Below, in pieces: positions 5,986 to 20,379 of a stretch of 64,000 nt of DNA. The notes under the pieces are model-generated. The model searched no databases. It was not told the DNA's origin and saw only the letters and a program-made list of their open reading frames with translations. Origin of the DNA: Streptomyces gardneri (GTDB taxonomy: Bacteria > Actinomycetota > Actinomycetes > Streptomycetales > Streptomycetaceae); assembly GCF_006539185.1 (NCBI RefSeq), contig NZ_BJMN01000007.1, positions 1 through 64,000 of the forward strand, read 5' to 3'. The translations under genes and the position numbers were made by a program. The stretch's first letter is position 1. The number at the start of each line of letters is the position of its first letter.

Positions 5986-6162
5986 GAGGCCCTTCCGGCC
6001 GTCGTCCGGAGATGACGGCACGTCGGATGATCTTCAAAGACCATCGTCACAGGGGTGAATGTCCGGAATGCCGCGACGAAAGTCCCGAATGTCCGGGACT
6101 TTGGTCCCTTGGCCAAGGCTTCACGGCGGGCTGATGTCAGTGGCGGCCCCTACCGTTTCCGT

Positions 6163-6639
6163 ATGACGACGACGAGCGGTGGGGGAACGTTCGAGGCGGC
6201 GACGGGGGACGGCCCGCCGCTGCCCGCGGCCGAGGCCGAGCAGCGTTCGCGAGAGGTCCGGACGGCCCGGGACGGCCTGCTCCAGATCAGACGGCTGACG
6301 AACGGTCAGGGTGGCGACCCGAAGGCCGTCCCCGCCGAGTGGGAGCGCGGCAGACCGGTCCGCGCGGTGGCCCTGGCCCTGGAGTCCGGCGGGCTCACCC
6401 CCTCCTCCGTCGACGCCTCGGGCACGCGGGTCGACACCGGCTACCGGGTCCGGACGGGGGACAGGCCGGCGACGGCCGTGGTGGAGTGGCTGGGCCCGCC
6501 GGGCTCGGGGGCCGCCCAGGAGGAGGCGGAGGCACTCGCCGCGTGCATGGCCGCCCTCACCCGCCTGGGCTGGGACGCGCTCCTCTACCGGGGCCCGCGG
6601 GGCCGCCGCTTCCTGGAGGTGGAGCCCATGAATCCGTGA
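6163..6639 (+). CDS. Conserved hypothetical protein
   Basis: The 158-residue soluble protein has no motif I recognise. It contains RDGLLQIRRLTNGQ near the N-terminus and a C-terminal region (ALTRLGWDALLYRGPRGRRFLEV) that reads like a compact alpha/beta fold. The ATG at 6163 is preceded by TACCGT ending 6 nt upstream and by no ribosome site, so I read it as leaderless; the open frame continues upstream without a better start. Codon usage is typical of the neighbourhood. Confidence 0.7.
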   Translation: MTTTSGGGTFEAATGDGPPLPAAEAEQRSREVRTARDGLLQIRRLTNGQGGDPKAVPAEWERGRPVRAVALALESGGLTPSSVDASGTRVDTGYRVRTGDRPATAVVEWLGPPGSGAAQEEAEALAACMAALTRLGWDALLYRGPRGRRFLEVEPMNP

Positions 6640-6690
6640 CTGCGTGAAAATCCTGAGGGCAGCCGGTGACGGCGTGCCAGAATCCGGCGC

Positions 6691-7719
6691 ATGGCGATCC
6701 GTTATCCCCAGCCCCTGCGCCCCGGCGACCGCATAGGTGTCACCTCTCCCTCCAGTGGGGTGTCGAAAGACCTGCGGGCGCGCCTCGACGTGGCGATCCG
6801 TGACGTGGAGGCACGGGGGTACGAGGTGGTGGTGGGCGACTGCATGGATGGCGACGGTCACCTCAGTGCGCCCGTCGCCGATCGCGCGGGCGAGCTGATG
6901 TCGATGCTGACCGACCCCGCCATCAGGGCCGTCGTGCCGCCGTGGGGCGGCGAGACCGCGATCGACCTGCTGCCGCACCTCGACTGGGACCGGCTGCGGG
7001 ACGCGGAGCCGACCTGGCTCGTCGGGTTCTCCGACATGGCGACCGTCATGACCCCGCTGACGCTCCTCACCGGGACGGCGACCCTGCACGGCAACAACCT
7101 CATGGACACGCCCTACCGTGCGCCGGACGGGCTCCTGTCCTGGCTCGACATCGTCACCGCCCCCCGAGGGCACCGGTTCACGCAGGTCCCGCCGAACCGC
7201 CACCGAACCGACGGATGGGACGACTACGCGGTCCACCCCGAGGTGCGCGAGTTCACGCTCGACACCCCAGGGCGGTGGACCCGGCTGGACGGCGACGGGG
7301 ACGTGGACGTCGAGGGGCGCCTCATCGGGGGCTGCATCGAGATGCTGTGCAACCTCGCGGGAACGCCCTACCTGGACGCCTCGGGTTTCGCCCGGGCCGA
7401 GGCCCCCGAGGGGCTCCTCGTCTACGTCGAGGCGGGCGGCGACGACTCCTTCGCCATCTGCAGGTACCTGCACGGGATGCGGCTGGCGGGCTTCTTCGAC
7501 CAGGCGAACGCCGTCCTCGTCGGCCGGACCTCGGCACCCGGCCACGAGTCGCTCGGCCAGCACGAGGCCGTGCTCGACGCCCTCGCGCCGCTGAACGTGC
7601 CGATCATCGGCGACGTCGAGTGCGGGCACGTGGCGCCCTACCTGCCGATCGTCAACGGAGCGCGCGGCCGCGTCGTCCACACGGCGACGCACAGCGAACT
7701 GACCCAGACTCTGGACTGA
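6691..7719 (+). CDS. S66 family peptidase (LD-carboxypeptidase/MccF-like)
   Basis: Family S66 serine peptidases either trim the terminal D-Ala of tetrapeptide stems (LdcA) or hydrolyse acyl-adenylate toxins such as microcin C7 (MccF). The 342-residue protein starts with PLRPGDRIGVTSPSSG, has the nucleophile motif GFSD (Ser114), RLIGGCIEML, the catalytic Glu in VYVEAGGDD and the His in CGHVAPYLP. Length matches the family. No signal peptide is seen, so it acts in the cytosol. AGAAT ends 7 nt before the ATG and there is no ribosome site, consistent with leaderless expression. The isolated position does not decide between recycling and immunity. Confidence 0.88.
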   Translation: MAIRYPQPLRPGDRIGVTSPSSGVSKDLRARLDVAIRDVEARGYEVVVGDCMDGDGHLSAPVADRAGELMSMLTDPAIRAVVPPWGGETAIDLLPHLDWDRLRDAEPTWLVGFSDMATVMTPLTLLTGTATLHGNNLMDTPYRAPDGLLSWLDIVTAPRGHRFTQVPPNRHRTDGWDDYAVHPEVREFTLDTPGRWTRLDGDGDVDVEGRLIGGCIEMLCNLAGTPYLDASGFARAEAPEGLLVYVEAGGDDSFAICRYLHGMRLAGFFDQANAVLVGRTSAPGHESLGQHEAVLDALAPLNVPIIGDVECGHVAPYLPIVNGARGRVVHTATHSELTQTLD

Positions 7720-7749
7720 CGCCGGACCGACGGGCTCGGCCCGACGCAG

Positions 7750-7782
7750 AGAGGACGCGACCCGATGGGGGCCGCGTCCTCT
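7750..7782. terminator. Hairpin between convergent genes
   Basis: AGAGGACGCG and its exact complement CGCGTCCTCT form a 10-bp stem around a 13-nt loop between the S66 peptidase gene and the convergent DUF350 gene, so it may serve both. Just beyond it, 7790-7860, the motif GGCGATCGTCAGGCG is repeated imperfectly. Confidence 0.75.
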
Positions 7783-7844
7783 CGTACGGACGACGATCGA
7801 CAGGCGATCGTGCGGGGCGATCGTCAGGCGATGGAAGGCGTTCG

Positions 7845-8267
7845 TCAGGCGATCGAGGCGGAGACGATCGCCGAGACCGCGAGGTTGCAGGAGGCCGTCA
7901 CCCACACCGCCGGGTGCGGCTCGGGGTCGACGAGCGTCGCGCCGAGCTTGCCCGGCGTCACCAGGTCCAGGACGAGGAAGGCGACCGCCATCATCACGAG
8001 GCCGAGCAGGCCGAACGCGGCAGTGGAGACGAGGCCCTTGCCGAAGTTGTCGTACGTGGTCCAGATCGAGGTGAAGACGATGCCGCCTATGCCGAGGAGC
8101 GCCGAGCTCAGCAGGATCGCGGCGTTGCGGTTGCGCTCTTCCCAGATCTGCCGGCCGAGCTTCCCCGGCGTCAGCAGATCCACGAGCACGATGCCGAGGA
8201 TCAGCAGGACCACGCCGAGGGCGCCGTAGGCACCTGCGCGGCCCAGGCCGTTGACGATGTCGCTCAT
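7845..8267 (-). CDS. DUF350 membrane protein
   Basis: The 140-residue protein has four membrane helices arranged as an internal duplication: each half ends with a nearly identical signature, LVDLLTPGKLGRQIW and LVLDLVTPGKLGATLV. That duplication is the hallmark of DUF350, whose molecular role is unknown. The ATG at 8267 has a GGAG element about 10 nt upstream; the longer open frame lacks one. It is convergent with the S66 peptidase gene. Confidence 0.85.
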   Translation of the reverse strand: MSDIVNGLGRAGAYGALGVVLLILGIVLVDLLTPGKLGRQIWEERNRNAAILLSSALLGIGGIVFTSIWTTYDNFGKGLVSTAAFGLLGLVMMAVAFLVLDLVTPGKLGATLVDPEPHPAVWVTASCNLAVSAIVSASIA

Positions 8268-8348
8268 GGGATGCCGGCTCCGAAGGGTTGCGATCGCGGG
8301 GGATCGGTGGTCAAGGACCGGCAAAATGTAGCGCACAGGTCAAGCGCC

Positions 8349-8383
8349 CCCGCCGCCCGCCCGGGAATCGGGCGGACGGCGGG
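8349..8383 (-). terminator. Terminator of the hdeD-like gene
   Basis: Fifteen-bp arms (CCCGCCGCCCGCCCG and its complement with one mismatch) enclose a 5-nt loop (GGAAT). The hairpin lies about 50 bp past the stop codon of the minus-strand HdeD-family gene. Confidence 0.8.
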
Positions 8384-8434
8384 AGCGCGGTGGGGGTGTG
8401 GAGAGGCGGCGGGCAGCGGCGACGGGCCGCTCCG

Positions 8435-9037
8435 TCAGGCCCCCGGAGGCAGGTTCCCGGCGCGCGAGCGGATCATGAAGGCGGTGGCCGCCTCGACCAG
8501 GCCGACCATGATCAGCCAGATCCCGGCGAGGACGGTGAGCACCTCCGCCGACTCCAGCGGCGACACGATGAGCACCACACCGGCCACCGCGCTCACGATG
8601 CCGAGGAAGATCTGCCAGCCTCGGGCCGGCATCGTGGGGTCGGAGGCCGCGGCCACCGTCTGCGTGATGCCCCGGAAGAGCCAGCCGATGCCGATCCAGA
8701 GCGCGAGCAGCAGGGTCGACTGCATCGCGCCCCGGAAGCAGAACAGGCCGAGCAGGATCGAGAGCGCGCCGCTGATGAACGCCATGACCCGCAGCGCGGT
8801 CGTCGCATGCGTACCGAAGGCCGTGACCAGCTGCATCACGCCGCTGAAGAGCAGATAGAGGCCGAAGAGCACCCCTGCCACGCGCAGGGAGGCATCGGGC
8901 CAGACGAGCACCATGATGCCCAGGACCACCGAGACGAGCCCGGCCACGAGCAGTGCCTGCCAGGCCGCGCCCGCCAGGACGCCGAGTGGACCGGGCGGTA
9001 CGTCGTTCCGGGTGGGTCCGTCATGAGTCTGTGTCAT
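8435..9037 (-). CDS. HdeD family (DUF308) membrane protein
   Basis: The 200-residue protein has six membrane helices in three hairpins with the repeated DUF308 pattern (LVSVVLGIMVLVWPDAS, ISGALSILLGLFCF, GIVSAVAGVVLIVSPLES). Family members such as E. coli HdeD are linked to acid resistance, but their mechanism is unclear. The ATG at 9037 follows GGGAGCG. It lies 64 bp downstream of the M20 peptidase gene on the same strand and may share its transcript; the terminator at 8349-8383 closes the unit. Confidence 0.88.
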   Translation of the reverse strand: MTQTHDGPTRNDVPPGPLGVLAGAAWQALLVAGLVSVVLGIMVLVWPDASLRVAGVLFGLYLLFSGVMQLVTAFGTHATTALRVMAFISGALSILLGLFCFRGAMQSTLLLALWIGIGWLFRGITQTVAAASDPTMPARGWQIFLGIVSAVAGVVLIVSPLESAEVLTVLAGIWLIMVGLVEAATAFMIRSRAGNLPPGA

Positions 9038-9101
9038 GGAACCATCGCTCCCTTTCCGTTCGGGGTCGCCGGGGCCGCCGCAGTCGACGGGGTCGCCGGG
9101 G

Positions 9102-10481
9102 TCATCGGGCCGCCGCCGCGTAGCCGCTCAGGAACAGCGCCTCGGCCAGCGCCATGTGCTCGATCTCCGAGGGGTCCACGCTCTCGTTGGGCGCGTGGAT
9201 GAGGCAGCCGGGCTCCTCGACGCCGATCAGCGCGATCTCCGCCTCCGGGAAACGGTCGGCCAGGACGTTGCACAGCGGGATCGACCCGCCCTGCCCGGAC
9301 TCGACCATCTCCTTCCCGTACGCCTCGCGCAGCGCCGACGCCAGGGCCCCGTAGGCCGGGCCGTCGGTGCGCGCCCGGAAGGGCTGCCCGGCGCTCTCCG
9401 GCTCCACGTCGACGCGGGCGCCCCAGGGCGCCATCGCGGTGAGATGGTCGGTGAGCGCGCGGAGCGCGTCGTCCGAGTCGATGCCCGGCGGGACCCGCAG
9501 GCTGACCCTGGCCCGTACCTTCGCCTGGACCGCGGCCGAGGAGCCCACCACCGGCGGGCAGTCGATGCCGAGGACGGTGACGGCGGGCCGGGCCCAGAGC
9601 TCGTCGGCGACCGAACCCGTACCGACGAGGGACACGCCGTCCAGGACGCCCACGTCGGTGCGGAACTGCTCGACCGGGTAGTCCACGCCGTCCCAGGAGC
9701 CGTCGCCCGGCAGTCCCTTGATCGCGGTGTTGCCGTCCGCGTCGCGCAGGCTGTCGAGGATCCGTACGAGCGCGGCCAGCGCGTCGGGCGCGGGGCCGCC
9801 GAACATGCCCGAGTGCATCTCGCCCTTGAGCGTGGAGACGGTGACCACGACATTGGTCAGCCCCCGCAGCGAGGTGGTCGCGGTGGGCAGTCCGAGCGCG
9901 AAGTTGCCGGTGTCGCAGATCAGCAGGGCGTCGGCGGCGAAGAGGTCGGGCTGGAGCGGCACCAGCTGCTCCATGCCGCCCGTGCCCTGCTCCTCCGAGC
10001 CCTCCGCCACGAACTTGATGTTCACGGGGAAGCCCTTGCCCTCCGGCCCGCCCAGCGCGCGCAGGGCCGTCAGGTGCATGGCGATGTTGCCCTTGCAGTC
10101 GGCGGAGCCCCGCCCGTACCAGCGCCCGTCGCGCTCGCTGAGCTCGAAGGGCGGTGTCCGCCAGGCCGCGTCGTCCAGCGGGGGCTGGACGTCGTAGTGG
10201 CAGTAGAGCAGCACCGTGGGCGCCCCCTCGGGGCCGGGCGCGTGGCCGACGACCGCGTCCGTGCCGTCCGGGGTCGTCACCCGCCGCATGTCACGGAGCC
10301 CGGCCTCGGTGAAGGCCCGGACGAGGAAGTCGGCGGTCTTCGCGCACTCCTCGGGCGGGAACTGCCGGGGGTCCGCGACGGAGCGCATCGCCACCAGCTC
10401 GGTGAGGTCCTCCTTCGCCCGGGGCATCAGCGCCCGGACCTTCTCCCGCAGGGCTGCGGTCTCGGGGGACTCGGCGGTCAT
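9102..10481 (-). CDS. M20 family dipeptidase
   Basis: This is a cytosolic di-zinc dipeptidase of the CNDP/PepV-like branch of M20, expected to hydrolyse dipeptides for nitrogen supply. The 459-residue protein contains the metal ligands in LLYCHYDVQP and GRGSADCKG, the general-base pair EGSEEQG, a dimerisation lid domain in the middle, and the final His ligand in IHAPNESV. Length is right for the family. It is divergent from the doxX-like gene and heads the strand that continues to the HdeD protein. Substrate range cannot be read from sequence. Confidence 0.9.
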   Translation of the reverse strand: MTAESPETAALREKVRALMPRAKEDLTELVAMRSVADPRQFPPEECAKTADFLVRAFTEAGLRDMRRVTTPDGTDAVVGHAPGPEGAPTVLLYCHYDVQPPLDDAAWRTPPFELSERDGRWYGRGSADCKGNIAMHLTALRALGGPEGKGFPVNIKFVAEGSEEQGTGGMEQLVPLQPDLFAADALLICDTGNFALGLPTATTSLRGLTNVVVTVSTLKGEMHSGMFGGPAPDALAALVRILDSLRDADGNTAIKGLPGDGSWDGVDYPVEQFRTDVGVLDGVSLVGTGSVADELWARPAVTVLGIDCPPVVGSSAAVQAKVRARVSLRVPPGIDSDDALRALTDHLTAMAPWGARVDVEPESAGQPFRARTDGPAYGALASALREAYGKEMVESGQGGSIPLCNVLADRFPEAEIALIGVEEPGCLIHAPNESVDPSEIEHMALAEALFLSGYAAAAR

Positions 10482-10659
10482 GCGTACCCACTTTCATCGG
10501 GACGGCCACAGCACCCTCACTTAAGCAATGGAGGACAAACGCCGCAAAAGATGACTCCGATGGAGCAGAGGACGGCGGTCCCGGGCGGCGCGGCCCGGGG
10601 AGCGGGCCGAGAGTGGACGGCGTACGAGTCCGCGCCCCCGACGTTACGGAGACCCCCTC

Positions 10660-11229
10660 ATGGCCGACCTCAACCGACGCGACCTCGGGCTGCTCGTGCT
10701 GCGGGTCGGCACCGGCGCCGTACTCGCCGCCCACGGCGCGCAGAAGCTCTTCGGCTGGTTCGGCGGTGGTGGCATCGAGGGCACCGCCAAGGGCATGGAG
10801 GCGATGGGCTTCTCACCCGGCCGGGAGAGCGCGATCGCCGCCGGTCTCGGCGAGGCGGGCGGCGGTGTCCTCCTCGCCCTCGGCCTCGCCACCCCGGCCG
10901 CCGGCGCCGCCGCGGCCGGCGCCATGACGGGAGCCGTCGCCGTCCACGCCCCGGCCGGCTTCTTCGCGCAGGGCGGTGGGTACGAGTACCCGGCCTTCCT
11001 CGGCTTCACCGCCGCGGCGATCGGGATCGCGGGCGCCGGACGGTACTCCCTGGACCACGCCACCTGCCACGTCCTCGACCGGCCGTGGGTGGTGGCGACC
11101 GCCTTCATCGGCACCGCGCTCGCGGCGGCGGCCGTGGTGGGCCGCCGAGCCCAGGACCAGGCGTCCCCGTCGAACGGCGAGTCGGCGGACACCGAACCGG
11201 CCGACGCCGCACCGGGCGAGGAGCGTTAG
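10660..11229 (+). CDS. DoxX family membrane protein
   Basis: The 189-residue protein has the DoxX fold: four membrane helices with the opening motif LGLLVLRVGTGAVLAAHGAQKLFGWFGG and an acidic, disordered tail. DoxX-like proteins are associated with quinone or thiol redox chemistry in the membrane; MRE-complex members help in oxidative stress. The ATG at 10660 follows CGGAG. The opcA homologue begins 31 bp after the stop, so the two probably form an operon, which would put a redox protein beside a regulator of NADPH supply. Confidence 0.85.
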   Translation: MADLNRRDLGLLVLRVGTGAVLAAHGAQKLFGWFGGGGIEGTAKGMEAMGFSPGRESAIAAGLGEAGGGVLLALGLATPAAGAAAAGAMTGAVAVHAPAGFFAQGGGYEYPAFLGFTAAAIGIAGAGRYSLDHATCHVLDRPWVVATAFIGTALAAAAVVGRRAQDQASPSNGESADTEPADAAPGEER

Positions 11230-11260
11230 GCTCGCCGCAGAGGAAGGGACGGCGCCGCGC

Positions 11261-12172
11261 ATGAAGATCGATCTGACGGACACCAACTCCAGCGAGATCA
11301 ACAAGGCGATCCTGGAGGGCCGGCGGGCCGTCGGCACACCCGCCGTCGGCGTCGTGCTCACCCTCCTCGTCGTCACCGACGAGGAACACGCCTACGACGC
11401 GGTCAAGGCCGCCAAGGAAGCCTCCCGGGAGCATCCCTCCCGGACCCTCGTCGTCATCAAGCGCCATGCCCGCACCCCCCGCGAGCGGCACGAGACCCGG
11501 CTCGACGCCGAGGTCAGGCTCGGGTCCGACGCCGGCGCGGGCGAGACGGTCCTGCTCCGCTTCCACGGCGAACTCGCCGCCCGCGCCGACTCCGTGGTCC
11601 TGCCGCTGCTCCTGCCGGACGCGCCCGTCGTCGTCTGGTGGCCCGTCGACGCCCCGGAGGTCCCCTCCCGGGACCCGCTGGGCGCCCTCGCGCAGCGCCG
11701 CATCACCGACATGTACGCGGTCGAGGACCCGCTCGCCGCACTGGAGGCCCGGGCCGCCTCGTACGCCCCCGGCGACACGGACCTCGCCTGGACCCGGCTC
11801 ACCCCGTGGCGTTCGATGCTGGCCGCCTCGCTCGACCAGGCCCGGGCGACCGTGACCTCGGCCGCCGTCGAGAGCGAGGCGGAGAACCCCAGCGCCGAGC
11901 TCCTCGCCCGCTGGTTCGAGGTCCGGCTCGGCGTCCCCGTCGACCGGATCGTCACCGACGGCCCGGTCGTCACGGCCGTCCGCATGGGCACGCCCGACGG
12001 GGAGATCCGCATCGACCGGCCGGAGGGCCCGGTGGCCCGGCTCGCCATCCCCGGCCAGCCCAGCCGGGTCCTCGCCCTCAAGGTCCGGACGACCGCCGAG
12101 CTGATCGCCGAGGAACTGCGCCGTCTCGACCCCGACGAGGCCTACGCGGCCGCTCTGCGCGGCCGCGTGTGA
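11261..12172 (+). CDS. opcA: OpcA, glucose-6-phosphate dehydrogenase assembly protein
   Basis: OpcA binds glucose-6-phosphate dehydrogenase (Zwf) and controls its assembly and redox response, and so NADPH production in the pentose phosphate pathway. The 303-residue protein begins MKIDLTDTNSSEINKAI and keeps the family blocks DAPVVVWWPVDAP, DPLGALAQRRITD, DLAWTRLTPWRSMLAA and a C-terminal LIAEELRRLDPDEAYAAAL. The ATG at 11261 is preceded by AGGAAGGG about 13 nt upstream. Normally opcA sits directly behind zwf; no zwf, tal or tkt is present here, so this is an orphan copy next to doxX. Streptomyces often have two opcA genes. Confidence 0.9.
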   Translation: MKIDLTDTNSSEINKAILEGRRAVGTPAVGVVLTLLVVTDEEHAYDAVKAAKEASREHPSRTLVVIKRHARTPRERHETRLDAEVRLGSDAGAGETVLLRFHGELAARADSVVLPLLLPDAPVVVWWPVDAPEVPSRDPLGALAQRRITDMYAVEDPLAALEARAASYAPGDTDLAWTRLTPWRSMLAASLDQARATVTSAAVESEAENPSAELLARWFEVRLGVPVDRIVTDGPVVTAVRMGTPDGEIRIDRPEGPVARLAIPGQPSRVLALKVRTTAELIAEELRRLDPDEAYAAALRGRV

Positions 12173-12199
12173 CGTACTCCGTACGTCGACCTCGTCGGC

Positions 12200-13426
12200 T
12201 CAGCCCTCCGGAGTGAAGGCCACCGGCAGCGTCGCCATGCCCCGCAGGATGCCCTCGCGCCGTGAGAGATCCGCGTCCGGGTCCGCGAGCCGCAGATCCG
12301 GGAAGCGGCGGAGCAGGGTGCCGATGGCGATCCGGGCCTCGGCCCTGGCCAGCGGGGCACCCAGGCAGAAATGCACACCGTGGCCGAAAGCGAGCTGTTG
12401 TGGGACCTCGCGGCGTGCGATGTCGAGGATGTCGGCGCGGTCGTAGCGGGCCGGGTCGCGGTTGGCCGCGGCGAGCCCGATGATGATCATCTCGCCCGCC
12501 GGGACGGTCACCCCGCCGATCTCGTAGTCGTCCACGGTGAAGCGCGCGACACCCCGGCTCACGGGGCCCTCGTAGCGCAGCAGTTCCTCGATCGCGCCGG
12601 GGAGCAGCGAGGGGTCGTCGCGGAGCGCGGCGAACTGCTCCGGGTGGCGCAGGAGCGCGTGGACGCCGTTGGCGATGAGGCTCGCCGTCGTCTCGTGGCC
12701 GGCCAGCGTGAGCAGGATCGTCATGGCCGTCAGCTCGCGGTCGCTGATCCGCTCCTCGGCCTGCGCGGCACACAGCGCGCTCAGCAGGTCGTCCTTCGGG
12801 TCGGCCTTGCGCTGGGCGATCAACGGCAGGAAGAACTCGGCGAGTTCGGCCCGGGCCTGTGCCCCCTTGGCGAGGCGCTCGGGTGTGTTGGGCGGCATGA
12901 TGAGGCCGACCGCGAGGCGGGCGAAGTCGGGCTGTCCCTCGGCCGGGATGCCGATGAGTTCGCTGAGTACGGCCATGGGCAGCGGGAGCGCGAACTCGGA
13001 GACGAGATCGGCGGATCCGCGGGTCGCGAAGGCGTCGATGAAGGCGTCGGTGTGTGCCTGGACGCGGGGCGCCATCTGCTCCACGCGACGGAAGGTGAAG
13101 GCCTTCGAGACGAGGTTGCGCAGCCGCGTGTGGTCCTCGCCGTTGGCGACGAGCATGCTGGCCATCAGGACGTTGGTGCGCTCCTGATGGGCCATCTCCT
13201 CCTCAAGTCCGTTGACCCCGACCGGGCTACTGCTGAGCCGGGGGTCGGTGAGCGCCGCCACCGCCTCGTCGTAGCCGGTGACCATCCAGACTTCAAGGGT
13301 GGGATTCAGCCGGACACGCTGGACGACTCCGTGTTCGCGGATGCGCTCGAAGAGGGGGTAGGGGTTGGGCTGTTGGGCGACGTTTACCGGGACATCGTGA
13401 ACTATCGTCTGGTCTTGGCCGGTCAT
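12200..13426 (-). CDS. Cytochrome P450 (CYP105/107-like)
   Basis: This is a soluble class I P450 that needs ferredoxin and reductase partners, neither of which is nearby. The 408-residue protein contains the I-helix oxygen-activation motif AGHETT, the K-helix ExxR in EELLRYEGP and the haem loop FGHGVHFCLG with Cys354 as the thiolate ligand. GGGGAG precedes the ATG by 9 nt. The gene is divergent from the second P450, with 237 bp between the starts. All conserved P450 residues are intact, so it should be active. The substrate is unknown; a role in maturing the MKYWH peptide product is possible only by proximity. Confidence 0.92.
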   Translation of the reverse strand: MTGQDQTIVHDVPVNVAQQPNPYPLFERIREHGVVQRVRLNPTLEVWMVTGYDEAVAALTDPRLSSSPVGVNGLEEEMAHQERTNVLMASMLVANGEDHTRLRNLVSKAFTFRRVEQMAPRVQAHTDAFIDAFATRGSADLVSEFALPLPMAVLSELIGIPAEGQPDFARLAVGLIMPPNTPERLAKGAQARAELAEFFLPLIAQRKADPKDDLLSALCAAQAEERISDRELTAMTILLTLAGHETTASLIANGVHALLRHPEQFAALRDDPSLLPGAIEELLRYEGPVSRGVARFTVDDYEIGGVTVPAGEMIIIGLAAANRDPARYDRADILDIARREVPQQLAFGHGVHFCLGAPLARAEARIAIGTLLRRFPDLRLADPDADLSRREGILRGMATLPVAFTPEG

Positions 13427-13501
13427 CTTCCGTAACTCCCCGAAGATTTGTGAAGGATCTCTGGCAGGTAGTCATACCAGCCACCTCAGTTGCGTGGTAG
13501 C

Positions 13502-13558
13502 GTCACCGGCGCTCGGCTCGAATGATGTACGGGGAAGGACCGGCGAACCGCCGGTGAC
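13502..13558. promoter_or_regulatory. Inverted repeat in the divergent P450 promoter region
   Basis: GTCACCGGCG and its exact complement CGCCGGTGAC are separated by 37 bp inside the region between the two divergent P450 genes. It could be a looped operator or a hairpin in the leader of the right-hand gene. No known operator motif is recognised. Confidence 0.4.
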
Positions 13559-13663
13559 ACACCAGCGAGGCGCTCCGCCCACCGGCGGATCGGCGTCTCG
13601 CACAGCTCGACTCGTCAGCAGTCAAGGCCTCAACCAGGCCCTATGCGAAGGGGGAGATGTTTC

Positions 13664-14854
13664 GTGGAGCAAGCGACAGGCGTGGACCCGATCCTGGACC
13701 TGATCCGTCCGTCGAACCTGCGGAACCCCTACCCCGCGTATGCCCGGATGAGGGAGTCCGCCCCCGTCTACTGGCACGAACTGCTCGGTTCCTGGGTGCT
13801 CACCCGGCACGCCGACTGCCTCGCCGTACTCACCGACAGTCACCGCTTCGCCTCCGACTGGCGCCGCGCCGGGGAGGACATCCCCGCGCCGCTGCTGAGC
13901 GTGCAGACCCTCGACCCGCCGGAGCACACGGCGATCCGGCATCTGCTCCTCGACGGCTTCCGGGCCCAGGACCGACGGGCGTTGCACGACGGTCTGGACC
14001 TCCAGATCGACGACCTGCTCGCGGAGTTGGCCGAGCGGCCCTCGTTCGACTTCGTCGGAGAGCTGGCCGAACCGGTCGCGCTGCGCTTCGTCACCGCCTT
14101 CCTCGGCGTCCCGGCGCCCGAGCTCGACTGGTTCGTGCCCATGTCCCGTACCGTCGTCGACGGCATGGACGCCGGCCTGTGGCCGGAGAAGCACGAGCCC
14201 GCCGTCGCGGCGCGGGCACGGCTCGCCGAGTACGCCGGCGGGTGGCTCGCGGACCCGCCGAAGGAAGGGCTCATCGCCTACGTCGCCGAACACGCGGCGG
14301 ACAGTGGCGTAGAGGAAACGATTCTTCGGAACAGTCTGCGCGCGGTCCTGCACGCCGGCTACGAATCCGCCTCACGGCTCCTCGGCAACGCCGCGGCGGC
14401 CCTGCTCACCACCCCCGGCGCGATGGCCGCCTTCCCGGCGACCCCGGCCTCCGCCGTGGACGAACTCATCCGGTACGACGCACCCGTCCAGGCGGACGCC
14501 CGGGTCTGCGTCACCGATACCGAACTGGGTGGCGTCACGATGAGAGCGGGTGATCCGGTCACGCTCTTCCTGGGCGCGGCCAACCACGACCCGCTCCGCT
14601 TCGACCACCCCACAGAGCTGCGACTCGACCGCGCCCCGAACCCACACCTCGGGTTCGGACGCGGGGCCCATGCCTGTCTGGGCGCGTCCATGGCGATCCG
14701 GCTTGCCGGATCGGTCCTCGGGGCCCTGGCCAGGGACTACCCGGACGCACGGGGAGTCGCGGAACCGGAACACCGGCGCAATCTGACCCTCCGCGGTCTC
14801 GACCGCTTCGAGGTCACTCTGCGCCCGAGAGCGGGGGAGGGGGTACGACCATGA
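13664..14854 (+). CDS. Cytochrome P450, candidate peptide cross-linking enzyme
   Basis: The 396-residue P450 has the K-helix ExxR in DELIRYDAP and the haem loop FGRGAHACLG with Cys338. Its I-helix reads AGYES (residues 231-235), with Ser where most P450s have the proton-relay Thr, and the acid step kept as Glu. The GTG at 13664 is chosen because AGGGGGAG lies 7 nt upstream. Its TGA overlaps the ATG of an 18-bp gene encoding MKYWH, so the two are coupled. In described biarylitide pathways a single P450 joins Tyr3 to the aromatic residue 5 of an MxYxH pentapeptide. I infer that role here from the precursor, not from family-specific residues. Confidence 0.85.
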   Translation: MEQATGVDPILDLIRPSNLRNPYPAYARMRESAPVYWHELLGSWVLTRHADCLAVLTDSHRFASDWRRAGEDIPAPLLSVQTLDPPEHTAIRHLLLDGFRAQDRRALHDGLDLQIDDLLAELAERPSFDFVGELAEPVALRFVTAFLGVPAPELDWFVPMSRTVVDGMDAGLWPEKHEPAVAARARLAEYAGGWLADPPKEGLIAYVAEHAADSGVEETILRNSLRAVLHAGYESASRLLGNAAAALLTTPGAMAAFPATPASAVDELIRYDAPVQADARVCVTDTELGGVTMRAGDPVTLFLGAANHDPLRFDHPTELRLDRAPNPHLGFGRGAHACLGASMAIRLAGSVLGALARDYPDARGVAEPEHRRNLTLRGLDRFEVTLRPRAGEGVRP

Positions 14855-14868
14855 AGTACTGGCACTGA
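14851..14868 (+). CDS. Pentapeptide precursor MKYWH (biarylitide-type RiPP)
   Basis: Five codons followed by TGA encode Met-Lys-Tyr-Trp-His. The ATG overlaps the TGA of the P450 gene (ATGA), and a purine-rich site GGGGGAGGGGG ends 7 nt before it, inside the P450 coding end. The peptide fits the MxYxH pattern of biarylitide precursors (for example MRYYH), in which a P450 links Tyr3 and His5 and the first two residues are removed to leave a cyclic tripeptide. The expected product is therefore a cross-linked Tyr-Trp-His. A perfect terminator follows at 14933. In the clusters I recall, the tiny gene precedes the P450; here it follows. It is far too short for gene finders. Confidence 0.8.
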   Translation: MKYWH

Positions 14869-14932
14869 AACCAGTGAGCGGGGCGCCCGTCCGGGAGGCG
14901 CGCGCCACGCCTCGTGCACGACCGTGCACGAC

Positions 14933-14968
14933 CTGAAGCCCGAGCCTGTTGTACGGCTCGGGCTTCAG
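14933..14968 (+). terminator. Terminator after the P450/pentapeptide operon
   Basis: A perfect 14-bp stem (CTGAAGCCCGAGCC and GGCTCGGGCTTCAG) encloses the 8-nt loop TGTTGTAC, 65 bp after the pentapeptide stop codon. It fixes the right end of the transcript and shows that nothing else belongs to the operon downstream. Confidence 0.88.
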
Positions 14969-15007
14969 CCCTGTCCGGAGCGGGACGGACGACGGACGCG
15001 GAGGGAT

Positions 15008-15088
15008 CCGGACCCGGACCCGGGCGGAATCGAACCGGACCCGGACCCGGGCGGAACCGAACCGGAGCCGAACCCGGTCGGACCGACC
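15008..15088. repeat. Three 27-bp tandem repeats
   Basis: The unit CCGGACCCGGACCCGGGCGG plus AACCGAA occurs three times, the first two nearly identical and the third degenerate. The array lies between the terminator of the pentapeptide operon and the stop codon of the convergent esterase. Confidence 0.85.
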
Positions 15089-15111
15089 GGACCCCGGACG
15101 GGTCATCGGCG

Positions 15112-16083
15112 TCAGCCGCGCAGCCTTCCCGGCAGCCAGCGGAGCTGGGCGGCCTGCTGGAAGGAGCCGCCGCCCTCGTGGTCGTTGAAGTCGTAGACCT
15201 CGATCTCCTTGTCGTCCTCCGCGTACGCGTTGAAGGCCGCGAACACCGTGGACGGCGGGCACGTCTGGTCCTCGAGGGCCGTCGAGAACAGCGCCGGCGC
15301 GGTGGCGCGGGCGGCGAAGTGGACCCCGTCGAAGTACGCCAGGGTGTCCCGCGCCCGCTGGACGCGGCCCCGGTGGGCCTTGAGGTAGTTGCCGATCTCG
15401 CGGTACGGCATGCGGTCCGTGAGGGTCGTCGCGCGCGGGAAGTCGCAGAGGAACGGCACGTCGGGGGCGACGGCCACCAGGTCCCGTACGAGCCCGGCCA
15501 CCGCGAGGGTGATGCCGCCGCCCTGGCTTCCGCCGGTCACCGCCGTGCGGCCGGCGTCCACCAGCGGGTGCGAGCGCGCCGCCTCCACGGCGCGGACCGC
15601 GTCCGTGAAGAGCCGCCGGTAGTAGTAGGTGTCCGGATTCTCGATGCCCCGGGTCATGAATCCGGGGGCGGCGGGCGCGCTGCCGACCGGGTCGGGGGTG
15701 TCGCCGGTGGCCCACCCGCTGCCCTGCCCCCGGGTGTCCATCACGAAGTGCCCGAACCCGGCGGAGGCCCAGAGCAGATGCGTGTGCGGCAGCCCGCGCC
15801 CGCCTCCGTAGCCGAGGAACTCGACGACCACGGGCAGCGGTTCCGAGATGCCCGCGGGCAGCGCGAACCAGCCCTTGACCGGCTGGCCGTCGAACCCGGC
15901 GAACGTCACGTCGTACGTCTCCACCGTGGCGAGCCCCGTGGCGACGCGCTCGAAGCGCGCGTCGAGCGGGTGCGCGCGCGTCTCGGCGAGGGTCTTCGCC
16001 CAGAAGGCGTCGAAGTCCTCCGGCTCCACGGACGCGCTGCGGTACGTCCGGAGTTGGTCGATGGGCAGGTCGAACTGGCTCAT
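15112..16083 (-). CDS. Acetylxylan esterase/cephalosporin-C deacetylase (CE7)
   Basis: Family CE7 enzymes remove acetyl groups from short xylo-oligosaccharides and also from cephalosporin C, usually in the cytoplasm as hexamers. The 323-residue protein has the typical start FDLPIDQLRTYR, the RGQGSGW loop, the nucleophile motif GGSQGG, the acid in ALEDQTCPPS and the His in DFNDHEGGGS, with no signal peptide. Length matches the family. AGGCGG precedes the ATG. The palindrome at 16166-16187, about 85 bp upstream of the start, is a likely operator for sugar-responsive control. Confidence 0.92.
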   Translation of the reverse strand: MSQFDLPIDQLRTYRSASVEPEDFDAFWAKTLAETRAHPLDARFERVATGLATVETYDVTFAGFDGQPVKGWFALPAGISEPLPVVVEFLGYGGGRGLPHTHLLWASAGFGHFVMDTRGQGSGWATGDTPDPVGSAPAAPGFMTRGIENPDTYYYRRLFTDAVRAVEAARSHPLVDAGRTAVTGGSQGGGITLAVAGLVRDLVAVAPDVPFLCDFPRATTLTDRMPYREIGNYLKAHRGRVQRARDTLAYFDGVHFAARATAPALFSTALEDQTCPPSTVFAAFNAYAEDDKEIEVYDFNDHEGGGSFQQAAQLRWLPGRLRG

Positions 16084-16165
16084 GGAAACCGCCTGGTGAG
16101 TGAGGGTCGCGTTCGAAATCTCGACCGGTCACTCCGGTCCTCCCCACCCTAGTAGGACCCCTCGG

Positions 16166-16187
16166 CCGATTCATATACGTGAATCGG
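16166..16187. promoter_or_regulatory. Palindromic operator upstream of the CE7 esterase
   Basis: CCGATTCA and TGAATCGG are perfect inverted 8-mers around TATACG, giving a 22-bp site in an AT-richer patch. Position and symmetry suit a dimeric repressor of the LacI or GntR type acting on the esterase gene. The sequence between 16188 and 16332 contains no other recognisable feature. Confidence 0.55.
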
Positions 16188-16332
16188 TCGAGGTGCCATC
16201 CAGCGGCGCCGCACCGACACATCACACGGAGCGCGCCACGAGAACGCCCCCGGGGCAGTCCCCGTGGCATCCTCGGACGATGCCCCACCGCGTCCGGCTG
16301 CGGGCCTTCGTCGTCCTGCGCGGAGGAACACC

Positions 16333-16614
16333 ATGCTCATCAGCCACACCGTTCGCCACCACGTCCTGCACGTGGCGCTCCACCGCGACCTGGACGTCAC
16401 CAACAGGGCCGCGGCCGCCCTTCAGATCCAGGCTCTGGTCCAGACCCACCGCCCGACCCGGGTGGTCATCGCACTCCCGGCAGCCGACCCCACCCCGGCC
16501 ACCCTCAGCGCCCTCGCCCGCGCCCACCGCATGTGCGGAAGCCTCGGCATCCCCCTCACCCTGACGGGCGCGAGCACCCGCACGAGCCGCCTCCTGGAGG
16601 CGAACACGCCTTAG
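16333..16614 (+). CDS. STAS-like small protein
   Basis: The 93-residue protein follows the STAS (anti-sigma factor antagonist) plan: beta strand LHVALHRDLDVTNRAAAALQIQALV, a core strand PTRVVIALP, and LARAHRMCGSLGIPLTLTG, which parallels the 'L..A...A...G..L.L.G' ending of SpoIIAA-like proteins. The usual D-S phosphorylation dipeptide is replaced by PAADPTPATLS, so a phospho-switch is uncertain. GGAGG lies 7 nt before the ATG at 16333. No anti-sigma factor is adjacent; the hairpin at 16731 ends the unit. Confidence 0.65.
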   Translation: MLISHTVRHHVLHVALHRDLDVTNRAAAALQIQALVQTHRPTRVVIALPAADPTPATLSALARAHRMCGSLGIPLTLTGASTRTSRLLEANTP

Positions 16615-16730
16615 GGGCCGCGGAGAATTCGCATGCGGCGGCACCGGCCGTCTGCTGAGCATGCGTCGCTGTGGAGATCGACGACTCACTCGTCCGCCGC
16701 GCTGTCGACCATGTGTGGTGCCCCGAGGAT

Positions 16731-16766
16731 CCCCAGCGCTCCGGCCGAACGGTCGGAGCGCTGGGG
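16731..16766. terminator. Terminator hairpin
   Basis: CCCCAGCGCTCCG and its exact complement form a 13-bp stem with a 10-nt loop, 116 bp past the STAS-like gene and just upstream of the next promoter. Confidence 0.8.
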
Positions 16767-16774
16767 AAAGCCGC

Positions 16775-16803
16775 CTGACCGTGAACCGAACGGGGGCTAG
16801 GCT
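16775..16803 (+). promoter_or_regulatory. Sigma-70-type promoter for a leaderless gene
   Basis: CTGACC (16775-16780) and TAGGCT (16798-16803) are spaced by 17 bp, and the GTG start at 16810 begins 6 nt after the -10 box, so transcription should start on or next to the first codon. Confidence 0.65.
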
Positions 16804-16809
16804 CGCACC

Positions 16810-17238
16810 GTGACTGCTGTATGGGAACCCACGACGGCGGGCGTGCTGCGACTGCCCTCAGGCCGGCTCGTCCGCGGCCGGGGACTGAACTGGCCGCTCC
16901 CGCAGGGCCCGCAGCCCACCTTCGCGCTCTACCTGCTGGGCCACCGGCCACCACCGGTCGCCTGGGAAAGCCGCTGGCTGCGCTGGCCCGACTTCCGGCT
17001 GCCGTCCGACCGCGCCACAACCGCCGAAGCGTTGCGCGAGGCATGGGAGCGTGCCGAGAGCGAACGTGTCGAGATCGCCTGCGCCGGTGGACGCGGACGA
17101 ACCGGCACCGCACTCGCATGCCTCGCCGTGCTCGACGGAGTACCCAGCCGCGAGGCCGTCGCCTACGTCCGGGAGCATTACGCTCCGCGCGCCGTGGAGA
17201 CACCCTGGCAACGCCGTTACGTCACCCGCTTCCCGTAG
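16810..17238 (+). CDS. Small dual-specificity/tyrosine phosphatase-like protein
   Basis: The 142-residue protein has the Cys-dependent phosphatase loop C(X)5R as CAGGRGRTG (Cys91, Arg97) following a strand, and an upstream Asp-containing segment RWPDFRLPSD that could supply the general acid. It lacks a signal peptide. It should hydrolyse phosphotyrosine or another phosphomonoester in the cytosol; the target is unknown. The GTG at 16810 is set by the promoter spacing rather than a ribosome site. The gene converges on a lipoprotein gene with only 9 bp between the stops. Confidence 0.8.
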   Translation: MTAVWEPTTAGVLRLPSGRLVRGRGLNWPLPQGPQPTFALYLLGHRPPPVAWESRWLRWPDFRLPSDRATTAEALREAWERAESERVEIACAGGRGRTGTALACLAVLDGVPSREAVAYVREHYAPRAVETPWQRRYVTRFP

Positions 17239-17247
17239 CGGCATCGC

Positions 17248-17778
17248 TCATCCGTCACAGACACCACCCGACGTGACCGACAGGCGGTAGGCGGAGCCCG
17301 AGGTGAGCTCGGGGCCGGGTTCGTGTTCCTCGAAGGAGAGGTTCTCGGCGGTCAGGAAGTAGACGTCCAGCTGGGCCGACTCCCCGCCTTCGGTACGCGA
17401 GAAGCACAGGCCCTCCGGCTTCCCGGGCGGCGGAGGAGTGGGGTTCGAGGGCGCCTTCCAGCCGTCGCGCTCCGCCGCCGTCCGGTAGTGCCGGAGCACT
17501 TCGGCCCGGGTGCCGGGGAACGCGTACGTCCGGTCGGCGTACACCATGACGTCTCCGCTGTCCGCCCAGCATCCGGCGTCGACGTTCTCGTAGTGCACGG
17601 GGCTGGTGGCCCCCACGGGCCGGGAGTCGAGGATCGCGAGCGACTCCAGTTCCTTCACACGCCCTTCGGTGCCCTCGCAGTCCTTGAGCAGGTCGAGCGC
17701 GGCCGAGCAGCCGGTGAGGCCCCCGACCCCCAGCACCGCCGACAACAGCAGAGCGGTCGGGCGGATCCGTATCGGCAA
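17248..17778 (-). CDS. Putative lipoprotein of unknown function
   Basis: The 176-residue protein has a lipoprotein signal peptide ending in the lipobox LTGC, so it should be anchored to the outer face of the membrane. The mature part contains four further Cys residues (KDCEG, AGCWAD, GLCFSR, GVCDG) that may form disulphides, and a strand-rich core (DVMVYADRTYAFPGTRAEVLRHYRTAAERDGWK). I choose the TTG at 17778 because GGGAG lies 6 nt upstream and it gives a normal signal peptide; a longer open frame exists. No family is recognised. Confidence 0.65.
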   Translation of the reverse strand: MPIRIRPTALLLSAVLGVGGLTGCSAALDLLKDCEGTEGRVKELESLAILDSRPVGATSPVHYENVDAGCWADSGDVMVYADRTYAFPGTRAEVLRHYRTAAERDGWKAPSNPTPPPPGKPEGLCFSRTEGGESAQLDVYFLTAENLSFEEHEPGPELTSGSAYRLSVTSGGVCDG

Positions 17779-17854
17779 CGTCGGCTCCCGGGTGAACGTC
17801 GAGGTGGGTGAGTGGCGCACGCCATCCGCGGAGAAGGCTATCCCCACGCCCGGG

Positions 17855-18787
17855 TCAGGGATTCCTCTGAACTTCCCGGCCGTACACATGGAACCCCCGG
17901 CCGGTCTTCCGGCCGAGCAGCCCCGCCTCCACCATCCGCTGCAGCAGCGGGGGAGGGGCGTAGAGCGGCTCCTTGAACTCCTCGTAGAGCGACTCGGCGA
18001 TCGAGTGGACCGTGTCGAGTCCGATGAGGTCGGCGAGCCTCAGCGGTCCCATCGGGTGGGCGCAGCCGAGTTCCATGCCGCGGTCGACGTCCGTGGCGGA
18101 GGCGTGGCCCGACTCGGTCATGCGGATCGCGGAGAGCAGGTACGGGACCAGGAGCGCGTTGACCACGAATCCGGCGCGGTCGGTGGAGCGGACGACGGTC
18201 TTGCCGAGGGTGAGGGTGGCGAAGTCGTGGACGGCTGCCGTGGTCGCCGCCGAGGTGTGCAGCGTCGTGACGAGCTCGACCAGCGGCAGTACGGGGACGG
18301 GGTTGAAGAAGTGGAGACCGACGACCCGGTCGGCGCGGCCGGTGGCTCTGCCGAGGCGCATGACGGGGAGCGAGGAGGTGTTGGTCGCCAGGATCGCCTC
18401 CGGATCGGCGACGATCTTGTCGAGCGCCGCGAAGACCTCGGTCTTCGCCCGGGCGTTCTCGGTGACGGCCTCGACGACCAGCTGCCGGTCGGCGAGGTCG
18501 GCGAGTTCCGCGGTGACCGTGACACGGGCCAGGGCCGTCTCGGCGGAGGACCGGTCGAGCTTACCGCGCTGGACGGCCCGTTCCAGGGACACGGCGATCC
18601 GCTCGCGGGCCGCCGTCGCGGCTGGACGGGAGGTCTCGGAGACGATCGTGTCGAGTCCGGCGCGGGCGCAGACCTCGGCGATGCCCGCTCCCATCCGGCC
18701 GCCGCCGACGACGCCCACGCGCCGGATGTCCAGGTGCTGGATGTCGACGTGCTGGATGTCCACGCCTCGGGCGCGCGCGCCGCTCAT
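17855..18787 (-). CDS. 3-hydroxyacyl-CoA (hydroxybutyryl-CoA) dehydrogenase
   Basis: This NAD(P)-dependent enzyme interconverts 3-hydroxyacyl-CoA and 3-oxoacyl-CoA. The 310-residue protein has the dinucleotide motif GVVGGGRMGAG, the catalytic HFFNPVPVLPLVELV block and the C-terminal dimer domain with GCAHPMGPLRLADLIGLD. The short N-terminal extension repeats DIQHVDIQHLDIRR. Its ATG overlaps the stop of aceB (ATGA), making it the third gene of the aceA-aceB operon and linking short-chain acyl-CoA oxidation to the glyoxylate shunt. Confidence 0.92.
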   Translation of the reverse strand: MSGARARGVDIQHVDIQHLDIRRVGVVGGGRMGAGIAEVCARAGLDTIVSETSRPAATAARERIAVSLERAVQRGKLDRSSAETALARVTVTAELADLADRQLVVEAVTENARAKTEVFAALDKIVADPEAILATNTSSLPVMRLGRATGRADRVVGLHFFNPVPVLPLVELVTTLHTSAATTAAVHDFATLTLGKTVVRSTDRAGFVVNALLVPYLLSAIRMTESGHASATDVDRGMELGCAHPMGPLRLADLIGLDTVHSIAESLYEEFKEPLYAPPPLLQRMVEAGLLGRKTGRGFHVYGREVQRNP

Positions 18788-20379
18788 GACCGGTCCTCGG
18801 CAATCCGGACGAGGTGGCGCTCGTACGCGGAAGGGGTGAAGAACGAGGGCAGCTCGGTCGCGAGCGTCGTCTCGGTGAACAGGTCCCGTACCTCGTCGAG
18901 CGCGGCCCACGGGAACTCGGCGCCGAGCGAGGCGAGTTCCTCCTCCAGGATCCGCAGGACGGTGTCACGCTCCACCACCCGGTGGCGGAGCCACTGCCAG
19001 ATCTGGACCCGGGCGATCTCGGCGGTGGCGGCGTCCTCCATGAGGCCGTACAGCGCCACGGCGCCCTGGCCGCGCAGCCAGGCGTCGAAGTACCGGAGGG
19101 TGACGGCGATGTTGGTCCGCACGCCCTCCTCGCTGGGCGGGCCGCTGATCCGGCGTACGGAGAGCAGACCGGCCGCCGTGGCCTCCACGTCCTCGCGGGT
19201 CCGGTGGAGCTGGTCGGGGCGGTCGCCGAGGACACCGTCGAAGACCTCGCGGCAGGTCGGGACCAGGCCGGGGTGGGCCACCCACGAGCCGTCGAAACCG
19301 TCCTCCGCCTCCCGTTCCTTGTCGAGCCGCACCTTCGCCAGGGCAGTGGCGTTCGCCTCCTGGTCCTTGCTCGGCACCTGGGCGGCCATGCCGCCGATCG
19401 CGTGCGCACCGCGCTTGTGGCAGGTGCGGACGAGGAGGTCGGTGTACGCCCGCATGAAGGGGGCCGTCATGGTGACCTTGGCCCGGTCGGGAAGAAGGAA
19501 GTCGGTGCGGTGTCCGAAGGTCTTGATCAGGCTGAACAGATAGTCCCAGCGGCCCGCGTTGAGCCCGGAGCTGTGCTCGCGCAGCTCGTGGAGGATCTCC
19601 TCCATCTCGAACGCGGCGGTGATCGTCTCGATGAGGACGGTCGCGCGGACCGTGCCGCGCGGGATGCCGAGGAGCTCCTGGGCGAGGAGGAAGACGTCGT
19701 TCCACAGCCGGGCCTCGTAGGCGTTCTCCAGCTTGGGGAGGTAGAAGTACGGTCCGTGGCCGGCGTCGATCTGCCGCCGGGCGCAGTGGAAGAAGTACAG
19801 GCCGAAGTCGACGAGCGAGGCCGGCACGGGGCGTCCGTCGAACAGCAGGTGGTGCTCCTCCAGATGCCACCCGCGTGGCCGGACCACGATCGTGGCGGGG
19901 TTCTCGCGGAGGCGGTACTCCTTGCCCTCCGGTGTGGTGAAGTCGATGCGCCGCTCGATCGCGTCGAGGAGTACGAGCTGTCCGCCGATCACGTTCTCCC
20001 AGGTGGGCGCGGTGGCGTCCTCGAAGTCGGCCATCCACACCCGGGCACCGGAGTTGAGGGCGTTGACCGCCATGCGCCGGTCGGCGGGCGGGCCGGTGAT
20101 CTCGACCCTGCGGTCGGTGAGGCCGGGCGCGGGCGGCGCGACCCGCCAGGAGGCGTCGGAGCGGACGGCGGACGTGGTCAGGGGAAAGTCGAGAGGGGTG
20201 CCTGTGGCGAGGCGGATCGCCCGCCGCCGGCGCTCCTTCAGGAGCCAGCCCCGGCGCGGGGCGAAGGCATCGACGAGCCGGGCGACGAAGTCGAGGGCCT
20301 CGGGGGTCAGGATCTCGTCGTGACGCTCGCCCGCGGCGGCGAGGACACGGAGGGAGCGCGGTGGGGCACTGGGAGGCAT
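18784..20379 (-). CDS. aceB: Malate synthase A
   Basis: Condenses glyoxylate with acetyl-CoA to malate, the second step of the glyoxylate shunt. The 531-residue protein carries the family signature HSSGLNAGRWDYLFSLIKTF split over the active-site loop, the block MADFEDATAPTWENVIGGQ and the C-terminal catalytic region TNIAVTLRYFDAWLRGQGAVALYGLMEDAATAEI. Length fits isoform A. It lies 163 bp behind aceA, with a strong hairpin in the gap, and overlaps the dehydrogenase gene by 4 bp. CAGGAGA precedes the ATG. Confidence 0.96.
   Translation of the reverse strand: MPPSAPPRSLRVLAAAGERHDEILTPEALDFVARLVDAFAPRRGWLLKERRRRAIRLATGTPLDFPLTTSAVRSDASWRVAPPAPGLTDRRVEITGPPADRRMAVNALNSGARVWMADFEDATAPTWENVIGGQLVLLDAIERRIDFTTPEGKEYRLRENPATIVVRPRGWHLEEHHLLFDGRPVPASLVDFGLYFFHCARRQIDAGHGPYFYLPKLENAYEARLWNDVFLLAQELLGIPRGTVRATVLIETITAAFEMEEILHELREHSSGLNAGRWDYLFSLIKTFGHRTDFLLPDRAKVTMTAPFMRAYTDLLVRTCHKRGAHAIGGMAAQVPSKDQEANATALAKVRLDKEREAEDGFDGSWVAHPGLVPTCREVFDGVLGDRPDQLHRTREDVEATAAGLLSVRRISGPPSEEGVRTNIAVTLRYFDAWLRGQGAVALYGLMEDAATAEIARVQIWQWLRHRVVERDTVLRILEEELASLGAEFPWAALDEVRDLFTETTLATELPSFFTPSAYERHLVRIAEDRS

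Follow-up and report, generated by a model that had tools for sequence, protein, structure and literature searches.

A biarylitide locus with two cytochrome P450s in Streptomyces gardneri, the second a probable further oxidase of the YWH peptide

Is a single cytochrome P450 enough to complete a peptide that is encoded by only 18 base pairs? The window analysed here, a 64,000-nucleotide stretch of Streptomyces gardneri DNA, carries a frame for MKYWH (bytA) at the very end of a P450 gene (bytO), and a sequence-only reading took this pair for a minimal RiPP system of the biarylitide type. The 18-bp gene and its cross-linker are of known kinds, and precursor form, linkage and P450 homology all agree with the biarylitide assignment. 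The system is probably not minimal, however, as a second P450 family, here called P450b, stands at every YWH locus examined. We consider it likely that this is a biarylitide locus with two P450s, in which bytO joins Tyr3 to His5 and P450b oxidises the YWH peptide again, most probably at Trp4.

The features of the locus are collected in Table 1. The overlap of the P450 and MKYWH genes, the ribosome site ahead of the latter and the terminator-like perfect repeat behind it had all been read from the sequence, and each is borne out at exact coordinates, the repeat without a T-run; we likewise agree that an 18-bp gene is invisible to ordinary gene calling. Most bytA relatives have a GGAGG-like ribosome-site sequence. 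A hairpin 3′ of bytA recurs as a perfect stem of at least 13 bp in 14 of 20 relatives and of 8 bp in two, while four of the 20 have no stem there within the limits of the script. Within the divergent promoter region, the block GCGTGGTAGCGTC (13492–13504) is near-invariant in 21 Streptomyces loci and is a possible shared operator or promoter element of P450b and bytO. On its other side, P450b lies almost end to end with opcA in the window (12172–12203), and an in-frame Pfam scan agrees with the OpcA identity of this neighbour.

Table 1. Features of the bytO–bytA–P450b locus, in window coordinates.
Feature	Position	Strand	Details
P450b, second cytochrome P450, predicted second oxidase of the pathway	12200..13426	-	divergent from bytO
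Divergent promoter region common to P450b and bytO	13427..13663	.	contains near-invariant block GCGTGGTAGCGTC
bytO-type cytochrome P450, predicted Tyr3-His5 cross-linker	13664..14854	+	GTG start 13664, TGA 14852-14854; 396 aa
bytA ribosome-binding site	14833..14843	+	GGGGGAGGGGG; 7 nt ahead of ATG
Overlap of bytO stop and bytA start	14851-14854	+	ATGA; 4 bp
bytA, 18-bp precursor gene, MKYWH	14851..14868	+	ATG AAG TAC TGG CAC TGA
Perfect 14-bp hairpin, likely terminator	14933-14946 / 14955-14968	+	64 nt past bytA stop; no U-tract

P450b is a hydroxylase-type P450 whose I-helix carries AGHET and whose heme loop reads FGHGVHFCLG; PikC and vitamin D hydroxylase are among its high-scoring solved chains. 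No NCBIfam family rises above the cut-off for either bytO or P450b. Among 295 Streptomyces genomes, P450b is present in 10 of the 10 that carry MKYWH and in 0 of the 285 others (E ≤ 1e-150, with the best six candidates scored per genome), 22 of which encode other bytO-like P450s and still have no P450b at that threshold. In 20 Streptomyces loci chosen by P450 homology (L041–L060), MKYWH lies directly behind the P450 and P450b adjoins bytO in every case, one of these loci (L058) running into a contig end. Outside Streptomyces, P450b is found at all four YWH loci of the first set, those of Micromonospora MW-13, Rugosimonospora, Actinomadura hibisca and A. rupiterrae. No P450b turned up next to the 14 non-YWH loci with the precursor behind the P450 (two MRYRH, one MRYVH, four MRYLH, one MRYIH, four MRYWY and two MRYAY), where the available flanks were about 6 kb on each side in most. 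A genome-wide search of 22 genomes (the four YWH, the 14 non-YWH, two without a found precursor and two with the precursor in front) returned P450b orthologues of 59–100% identity in 4/4 YWH genomes; in the other 18 the best match was 49% and 13 had none at E ≤ 1e-90, and the matches in these 18 group outside the P450b clade.

A later test on 298 genomes of the A. hibisca family gave six MxYWH matches: three further MKYWH loci, all of which have bytO and a P450b of 77–78%, A. hibisca itself, and two chance frames with neither bytO nor P450b. A further Streptomyces YWH locus with P450b is L147 (in genome G663). Altogether P450b stands beside the bytO–MxYWH pair in 32 of 32 records examined (the 20 loci L041–L060, the window, genomes G015, G268 and G270, L147, and the sets of four and three loci just described), a count in which duplicates across two collections enter once and some records may be the same species in two assemblies. 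We propose P450b next to a bytO–MxYWH pair as the mark of a two-P450 YWH subtype, and the window has this arrangement.

The wider P450b clade has members beyond these loci. One is a P450 of A. rupiterrae (L133/L148, G691:C11:30000-45000, gene at 6968–8197) that shares 50% identity with the P450b of the A. hibisca locus; no bytO or pentapeptide gene was found near it in the 15 kb fetched. The database proteins P0131–P0135, P0137, P0138 and P0145 fall in or beside the wider clade as proteins alone, except P0132, which the tree separates from L142 by a branch length of zero. A search in the family of G399 gave a match of 39% in one of 35 genomes, too little to be informative. Four MRYAY/MRYDY loci with the precursor upstream (L082, L083, L084 and L094) have a different second P450 directly after bytO (about 7170–8340), 29–30% identical to P450b. 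Biarylitide loci with two P450s may have had more than one origin.

The precursor scan covered a set of 80 bytO-related loci less L101–L120 (30–34% identity). It found no precursor in L062, L081, L091 or L095–L099, and a frame in L100 was dropped as chance (GTG start, no ribosome site, 34% relative). The Actinomadura locus L061 has two MRYRH frames, 53 and 134 nt past bytO, the second of which fails a stricter ribosome-site test. The bytO tree has 44 rows, nine of them from the 20 Streptomyces loci. A branch supported at 99/97 separates all 27 rows whose precursor follows the P450 from all 13 in which it comes first; two rows that yielded no precursor and two of unassigned context fall among the former group. 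As judged from the tree, the order of precursor and P450 follows phylogeny. The clade of the window's bytO holds the precursors MKYWH, MRYWH, MRYRH, MRYVH, MRYLH, MRYIH, MRYWY and MRYAY, and monophyly of the YWH bytO is rejected (AU p 1.0e-4; p 6.7e-5 in the 44-row tree, where two motif-unassigned rows were constrained with the YWH rows). The Streptomyces YWH enzymes are closer to the MRYRH/MRYVH/MRYIH/MRYLH group (97/84; 89/82 in the second tree), and those from outside Streptomyces to the MRYWY group (98/93; 99/98 in the second tree).

The P450b of both YWH lineages nevertheless group together (96/86; 96/77 in the other tree), inside a 99/97 clade distinct from the generic P450s that were sampled, which are about 50% identical (37 and 16 rows in the P450b trees, taken among the matches listed, 120 of 2673 at E ≤ 1e-80). 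The position of the gene differs between the lineages, being divergent and upstream of bytO in Streptomyces and co-directional and downstream of bytA elsewhere. At L143 P450b comes right after bytA with nothing between, while in other non-Streptomyces YWH loci a methyltransferase and a hydroxylase gene intervene; neither of these two has a match on the 6.3-kb contig of L143, and they could lie past its ends. Since the YWH cross-linkers do not form a single clade and the position of P450b differs between the two lineages, P450b appears to follow the peptide motif and not lineage or synteny, over only two or three independent changes. An independent-pairs sign test, in which P450b presence was labelled by hand from the locus scans, found these 2–3 changes all concordant (p 0.5), too few for any significance. 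The distribution would fit either one ancient gain with parallel losses, or transfer.

The best-surviving alternative is an ordinary biarylitide, in which the pathway ends with the cross-linked YWH tripeptide made by bytO and bytA, and local gene order has kept P450b alongside as an unrelated gene. AchB alone cross-links MKYWH in vitro (PMC13417212), P450b resembles hydroxylases of other metabolites, and an M20 peptidase (13/20), DoxX (16/20) and the opcA region (14/20, a location count) are also common near bytO in the Streptomyces loci. These other neighbours, however, are unmatched in the four YWH loci tested outside Streptomyces, on which ground they were rejected as pathway genes, whereas P450b is also linked to the YWH loci of Micromonospora, Rugosimonospora and Actinomadura, in another position and orientation, and did not turn up at the sister loci of other motifs. 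We therefore regard the ordinary biarylitide as unlikely, and prefer the reading in which P450b belongs to the pathway.

Other neighbours were weighed as pathway genes. In 16 of the 20 Streptomyces loci a methyltransferase orthologue is the neighbour of P450b (L058, cut by its contig end, is among the other four); the window locus lacks it, and the genome's best match, at 37%, is unlinked. The Asp-hydroxylase and the other methyltransferase were rejected as YWH-specific, being present with several non-YWH motifs as well. An acetyl xylan esterase/S9-like hydrolase (15112–16083) was set aside as leader peptidase, since it adjoins bytA in only nine of the 20 Streptomyces loci; a prolyl oligopeptidase is implicated for myxarylin (PMC12951456). 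Acetylation of the product, raised as an option in the sequence-only reading, has no local support, with no acetyltransferase among the 13 neighbouring proteins scanned in frame with Pfam (7845–20379).

The chemistry expected of bytO follows from its relatives. A biarylitide precursor is by definition five codons long and aromatic at residues 3 and 5, MxYxY/H (PMC13417212), a form that MKYWH has; bytA is tightly linked to bytO, in the window by overlap and in 20/20 Streptomyces relatives, and bytO is homologous to characterised pentapeptide P450s (8u2m, 8spp). Its best-scoring solved chains include RufO (8spp/9duj; E 1.4e-105 for 8spp) and P450Blt (8u2m; E 1.9e-91), as these entries are identified in PMC12186263 and PMC12951456, and it falls in one tree with MxYxH/Y-linked P450s. 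By homology and gene arrangement this is a biarylitide locus, and bytO is predicted to be a cross-linking enzyme. The RufO chains outscore P450Blt (357 vs 310 bits), so that bytO might instead nitrate Tyr3 in the manner of RufO and feed another pathway with no cross-linking at all. Residue positions that separate cross-linking from nitration are named in PMC12186263, and there the V165 and S235 of bytO match V169 and S239 of P450Blt and not the Asp169 and Val240 of RufO (RufO numbering). Given these residues, nitration is rejected as very improbable; nor is there a nitric oxide synthase among the same 13 proteins scanned in frame. At the cross-linker positions, H230 and E234 of bytO are the residues common to the compared enzymes, the A. 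hibisca enzyme having Thr, not Glu, at the E234 position. A Tyr–His cross-link thus stands as the expected reaction, on the cross-linker residues of bytO and the in vitro precedent of an MKYWH enzyme.

A gene of 18 bp invites doubt as to whether it is a gene. The degenerate pattern ATGNNNTAYNNNCAYTRA, which stands for any ATG-started MxYxH followed by a stop, was scanned over both strands of the genome (9,030,421 bases) and has a single match, the MKYWH gene; the reversed control pattern has 0 matches on both strands of the same genome. Ten of 295 Streptomyces genomes contain the MKYWH 18-mer, against none for the control. In the other nine it ends a P450 that is 89–99% identical to bytO (9/9), and close relatives of bytO (at least 89% identity) are confined to the same 10 of 295 genomes, the next relative being at 51%. 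Within L041–L060, bytA overlaps the P450 gene by ATGA in 15 loci, lies 1–22 nt downstream in four, and in one (L060) stands behind a broken P450 frame. L060 (G224, an assembly of S. diastatochromogenes; 6001–7174) has bytO in two pieces in different frames with bytA intact; as the methyltransferase there is likewise in two pieces, an assembly error is as likely as decay.

An alignment of 22 Streptomyces loci (L041–L060, the window and the motif hit L122) has all 18 bases of bytA invariant. At the 3′ end of bytO in the same loci, invariance falls to 19/50 for third positions and 66/100 for the others, and in the flank past bytA to 4/38 bases (+22 to +60) and 2/50 (+60 to +110). Two-fold codons vary within bytO (19 loci; TAC 104:TAT 18, CAC 230:CAT 30, AAG 44:AAA 1). 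By this comparison the five bytA codons are under selection. The earlier suggestion had been to align homologous P450 loci and see whether the codons are kept while neighbouring bases drift, and this is the pattern found, the P450 and all 18 bases being kept, with no refutation of the gene. The MxYWH pattern has nine matches in 394 + 298 genomes, three of them without bytO nearby (L121, L145 and L146), and the reversed control pattern has three in the 394 and two in the 298. Chance MxYWH frames do therefore occur, but a chance, untranslated open frame is hardly tenable for MKYWH in the window, where the sole match in 9 Mb coincides with the stop codon of the P450 gene and has a ribosome site, the frame is invariant across 22 loci, and sister P450s also precede MxYxH or MxYxY precursors.

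The A. hibisca P450 P0105, which we take to be AchB, is 54% identical to the window's bytO over 89% of the query. The two loci (A. hibisca, L074) are alike in the MKYWH peptide, in a precursor downstream of the P450 and in the presence of a P450b orthologue. They differ in that bytA overlaps bytO in the window and lies 49 nt behind it in A. hibisca, that P450b is divergent and upstream in the window, unlike in A. hibisca, and that the methyltransferase and Asp-hydroxylase genes of A. hibisca are not adjacent in the window. The MKYWH biarylitide of A. hibisca was published in July 2026; AchB is described as converting Nle-KYWH by 70% in vitro, with NMR showing a C–N bond from Tyr C6 to His N-tau, and as having a strong preference for Trp4 (PMC13417212). 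Cross-linking in vitro needed no partner P450, and in vivo attempts failed (PMC13417212). The Tyr–His link of the sequence-only reading agrees with the reaction expected here, but its aryl bond is an incomplete account, MKYWH having already been published with the bond solved as C–N (PMC13417212). Like Micromonospora MW-13 P450Blt/MRYLH and myxarylin, the window has an 18-bp gene of the MxYxH type and a dedicated P450 for a Tyr–His C–N bond (PMC10929621, PMC12951456, PMC8708641). It differs from both in residue 4 of the precursor, P450Blt being described as intolerant of Trp4 (PMC13417212), and bytA precedes bytO in the myxarylin operon (PMC8708641), whereas it follows in the window's clade. 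The lau atropopeptide cluster of laurentirubin B resembles our proposal in having two P450s, the second of which adds a further bridge after the first; as an atropopeptide it has no pentapeptide precursor, and the likeness is one of description, not of second-P450 sequence (PMC11450843).

In the pathway that we propose, the ATGA overlap would couple translation of bytA to that of bytO. bytO would then bind MKYWH and form a C–N bond between a Tyr ring carbon, C6, and His N-tau, as its homology and the published AchB work suggest. P450b, whose part in the YWH pathway is suggested by co-occurrence, would next oxidise the YWH macrocycle, by hydroxylation of Trp4 or by closing a second ring there, for example through a Tyr–Trp bond. 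The calculated [M+H]+ of the YWH species is 505.219 when linear, 503.204 with one cross-link, 519.199 with a cross-link and an added O, and 501.188 with two rings; for the full pentapeptide it is 764.355 linear and 762.339 cross-linked. The Met-Lys leader would be cut off by a peptidase encoded elsewhere, as is proposed for other biarylitides (PMC12951456). Motif and precedents point to Trp4 as the most likely target of P450b, because among the loci examined the enzyme occurs with YWH and not with YLH, YRH, YVH or YIH. MRYWY loci have Trp4 and lack P450b; Trp4 alone would therefore be insufficient, and the His-linked ring must matter too. Counting against the proposal, the substrates of the high-scoring solved relatives are macrolides and vitamin D, not peptides; the small number of independent changes and the A. 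rupiterrae clade member with no bytO in the 15 kb fetched also weigh against it. With a second P450 family at every YWH locus examined, the cross-linked Tyr-Trp-His tripeptide, previously put forward as the end product, is probably a pathway intermediate. The broader proposition, that YWH biarylitides form a two-P450 class in which P450b oxidises Trp4, perhaps fusing it to Tyr3 to give a bicyclic or oxygenated tripeptide, is in our judgement evenly balanced.

Hyalucidin A, according to the title of a 2026 Angew. Chem. paper (e22698) cited in the 2026 biarylitide article, is reportedly a bacterial RiPP with a benzofuranoindoline made by 'tandem P450 catalysis'. Its pathway may be the YWH two-P450 pathway or a sister of it, and we claim no priority for the two-P450 idea. 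A second P450 for MKYWH is not discussed in the main text of PMC13417212, where the lone 'additional P450' concerns the training set and the lone 'tandem P450' is a reference title. A literature search found no paper title that shows a pairing of a second P450 with a biarylitide.

A role for the second P450 could account for the Trp retained at position 4, and also for work with bytO only yielding, as it may, no more than an intermediate. The biarylitide of PMC13417212 is reported to have no detectable activity, as in earlier assays, and possible effects of related peptides on plants are mentioned there. Assays on an unfinished intermediate could be one reason for the absent activity. P450b is a directly testable partner enzyme and, where it stands beside bytO, a sequence marker for YWH biarylitides whose real product may be unseen. 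If the proposal is true, the smallest known RiPP genes would encode a bicyclic or oxygenated tripeptide, and not the simple cross-linked one assayed so far.
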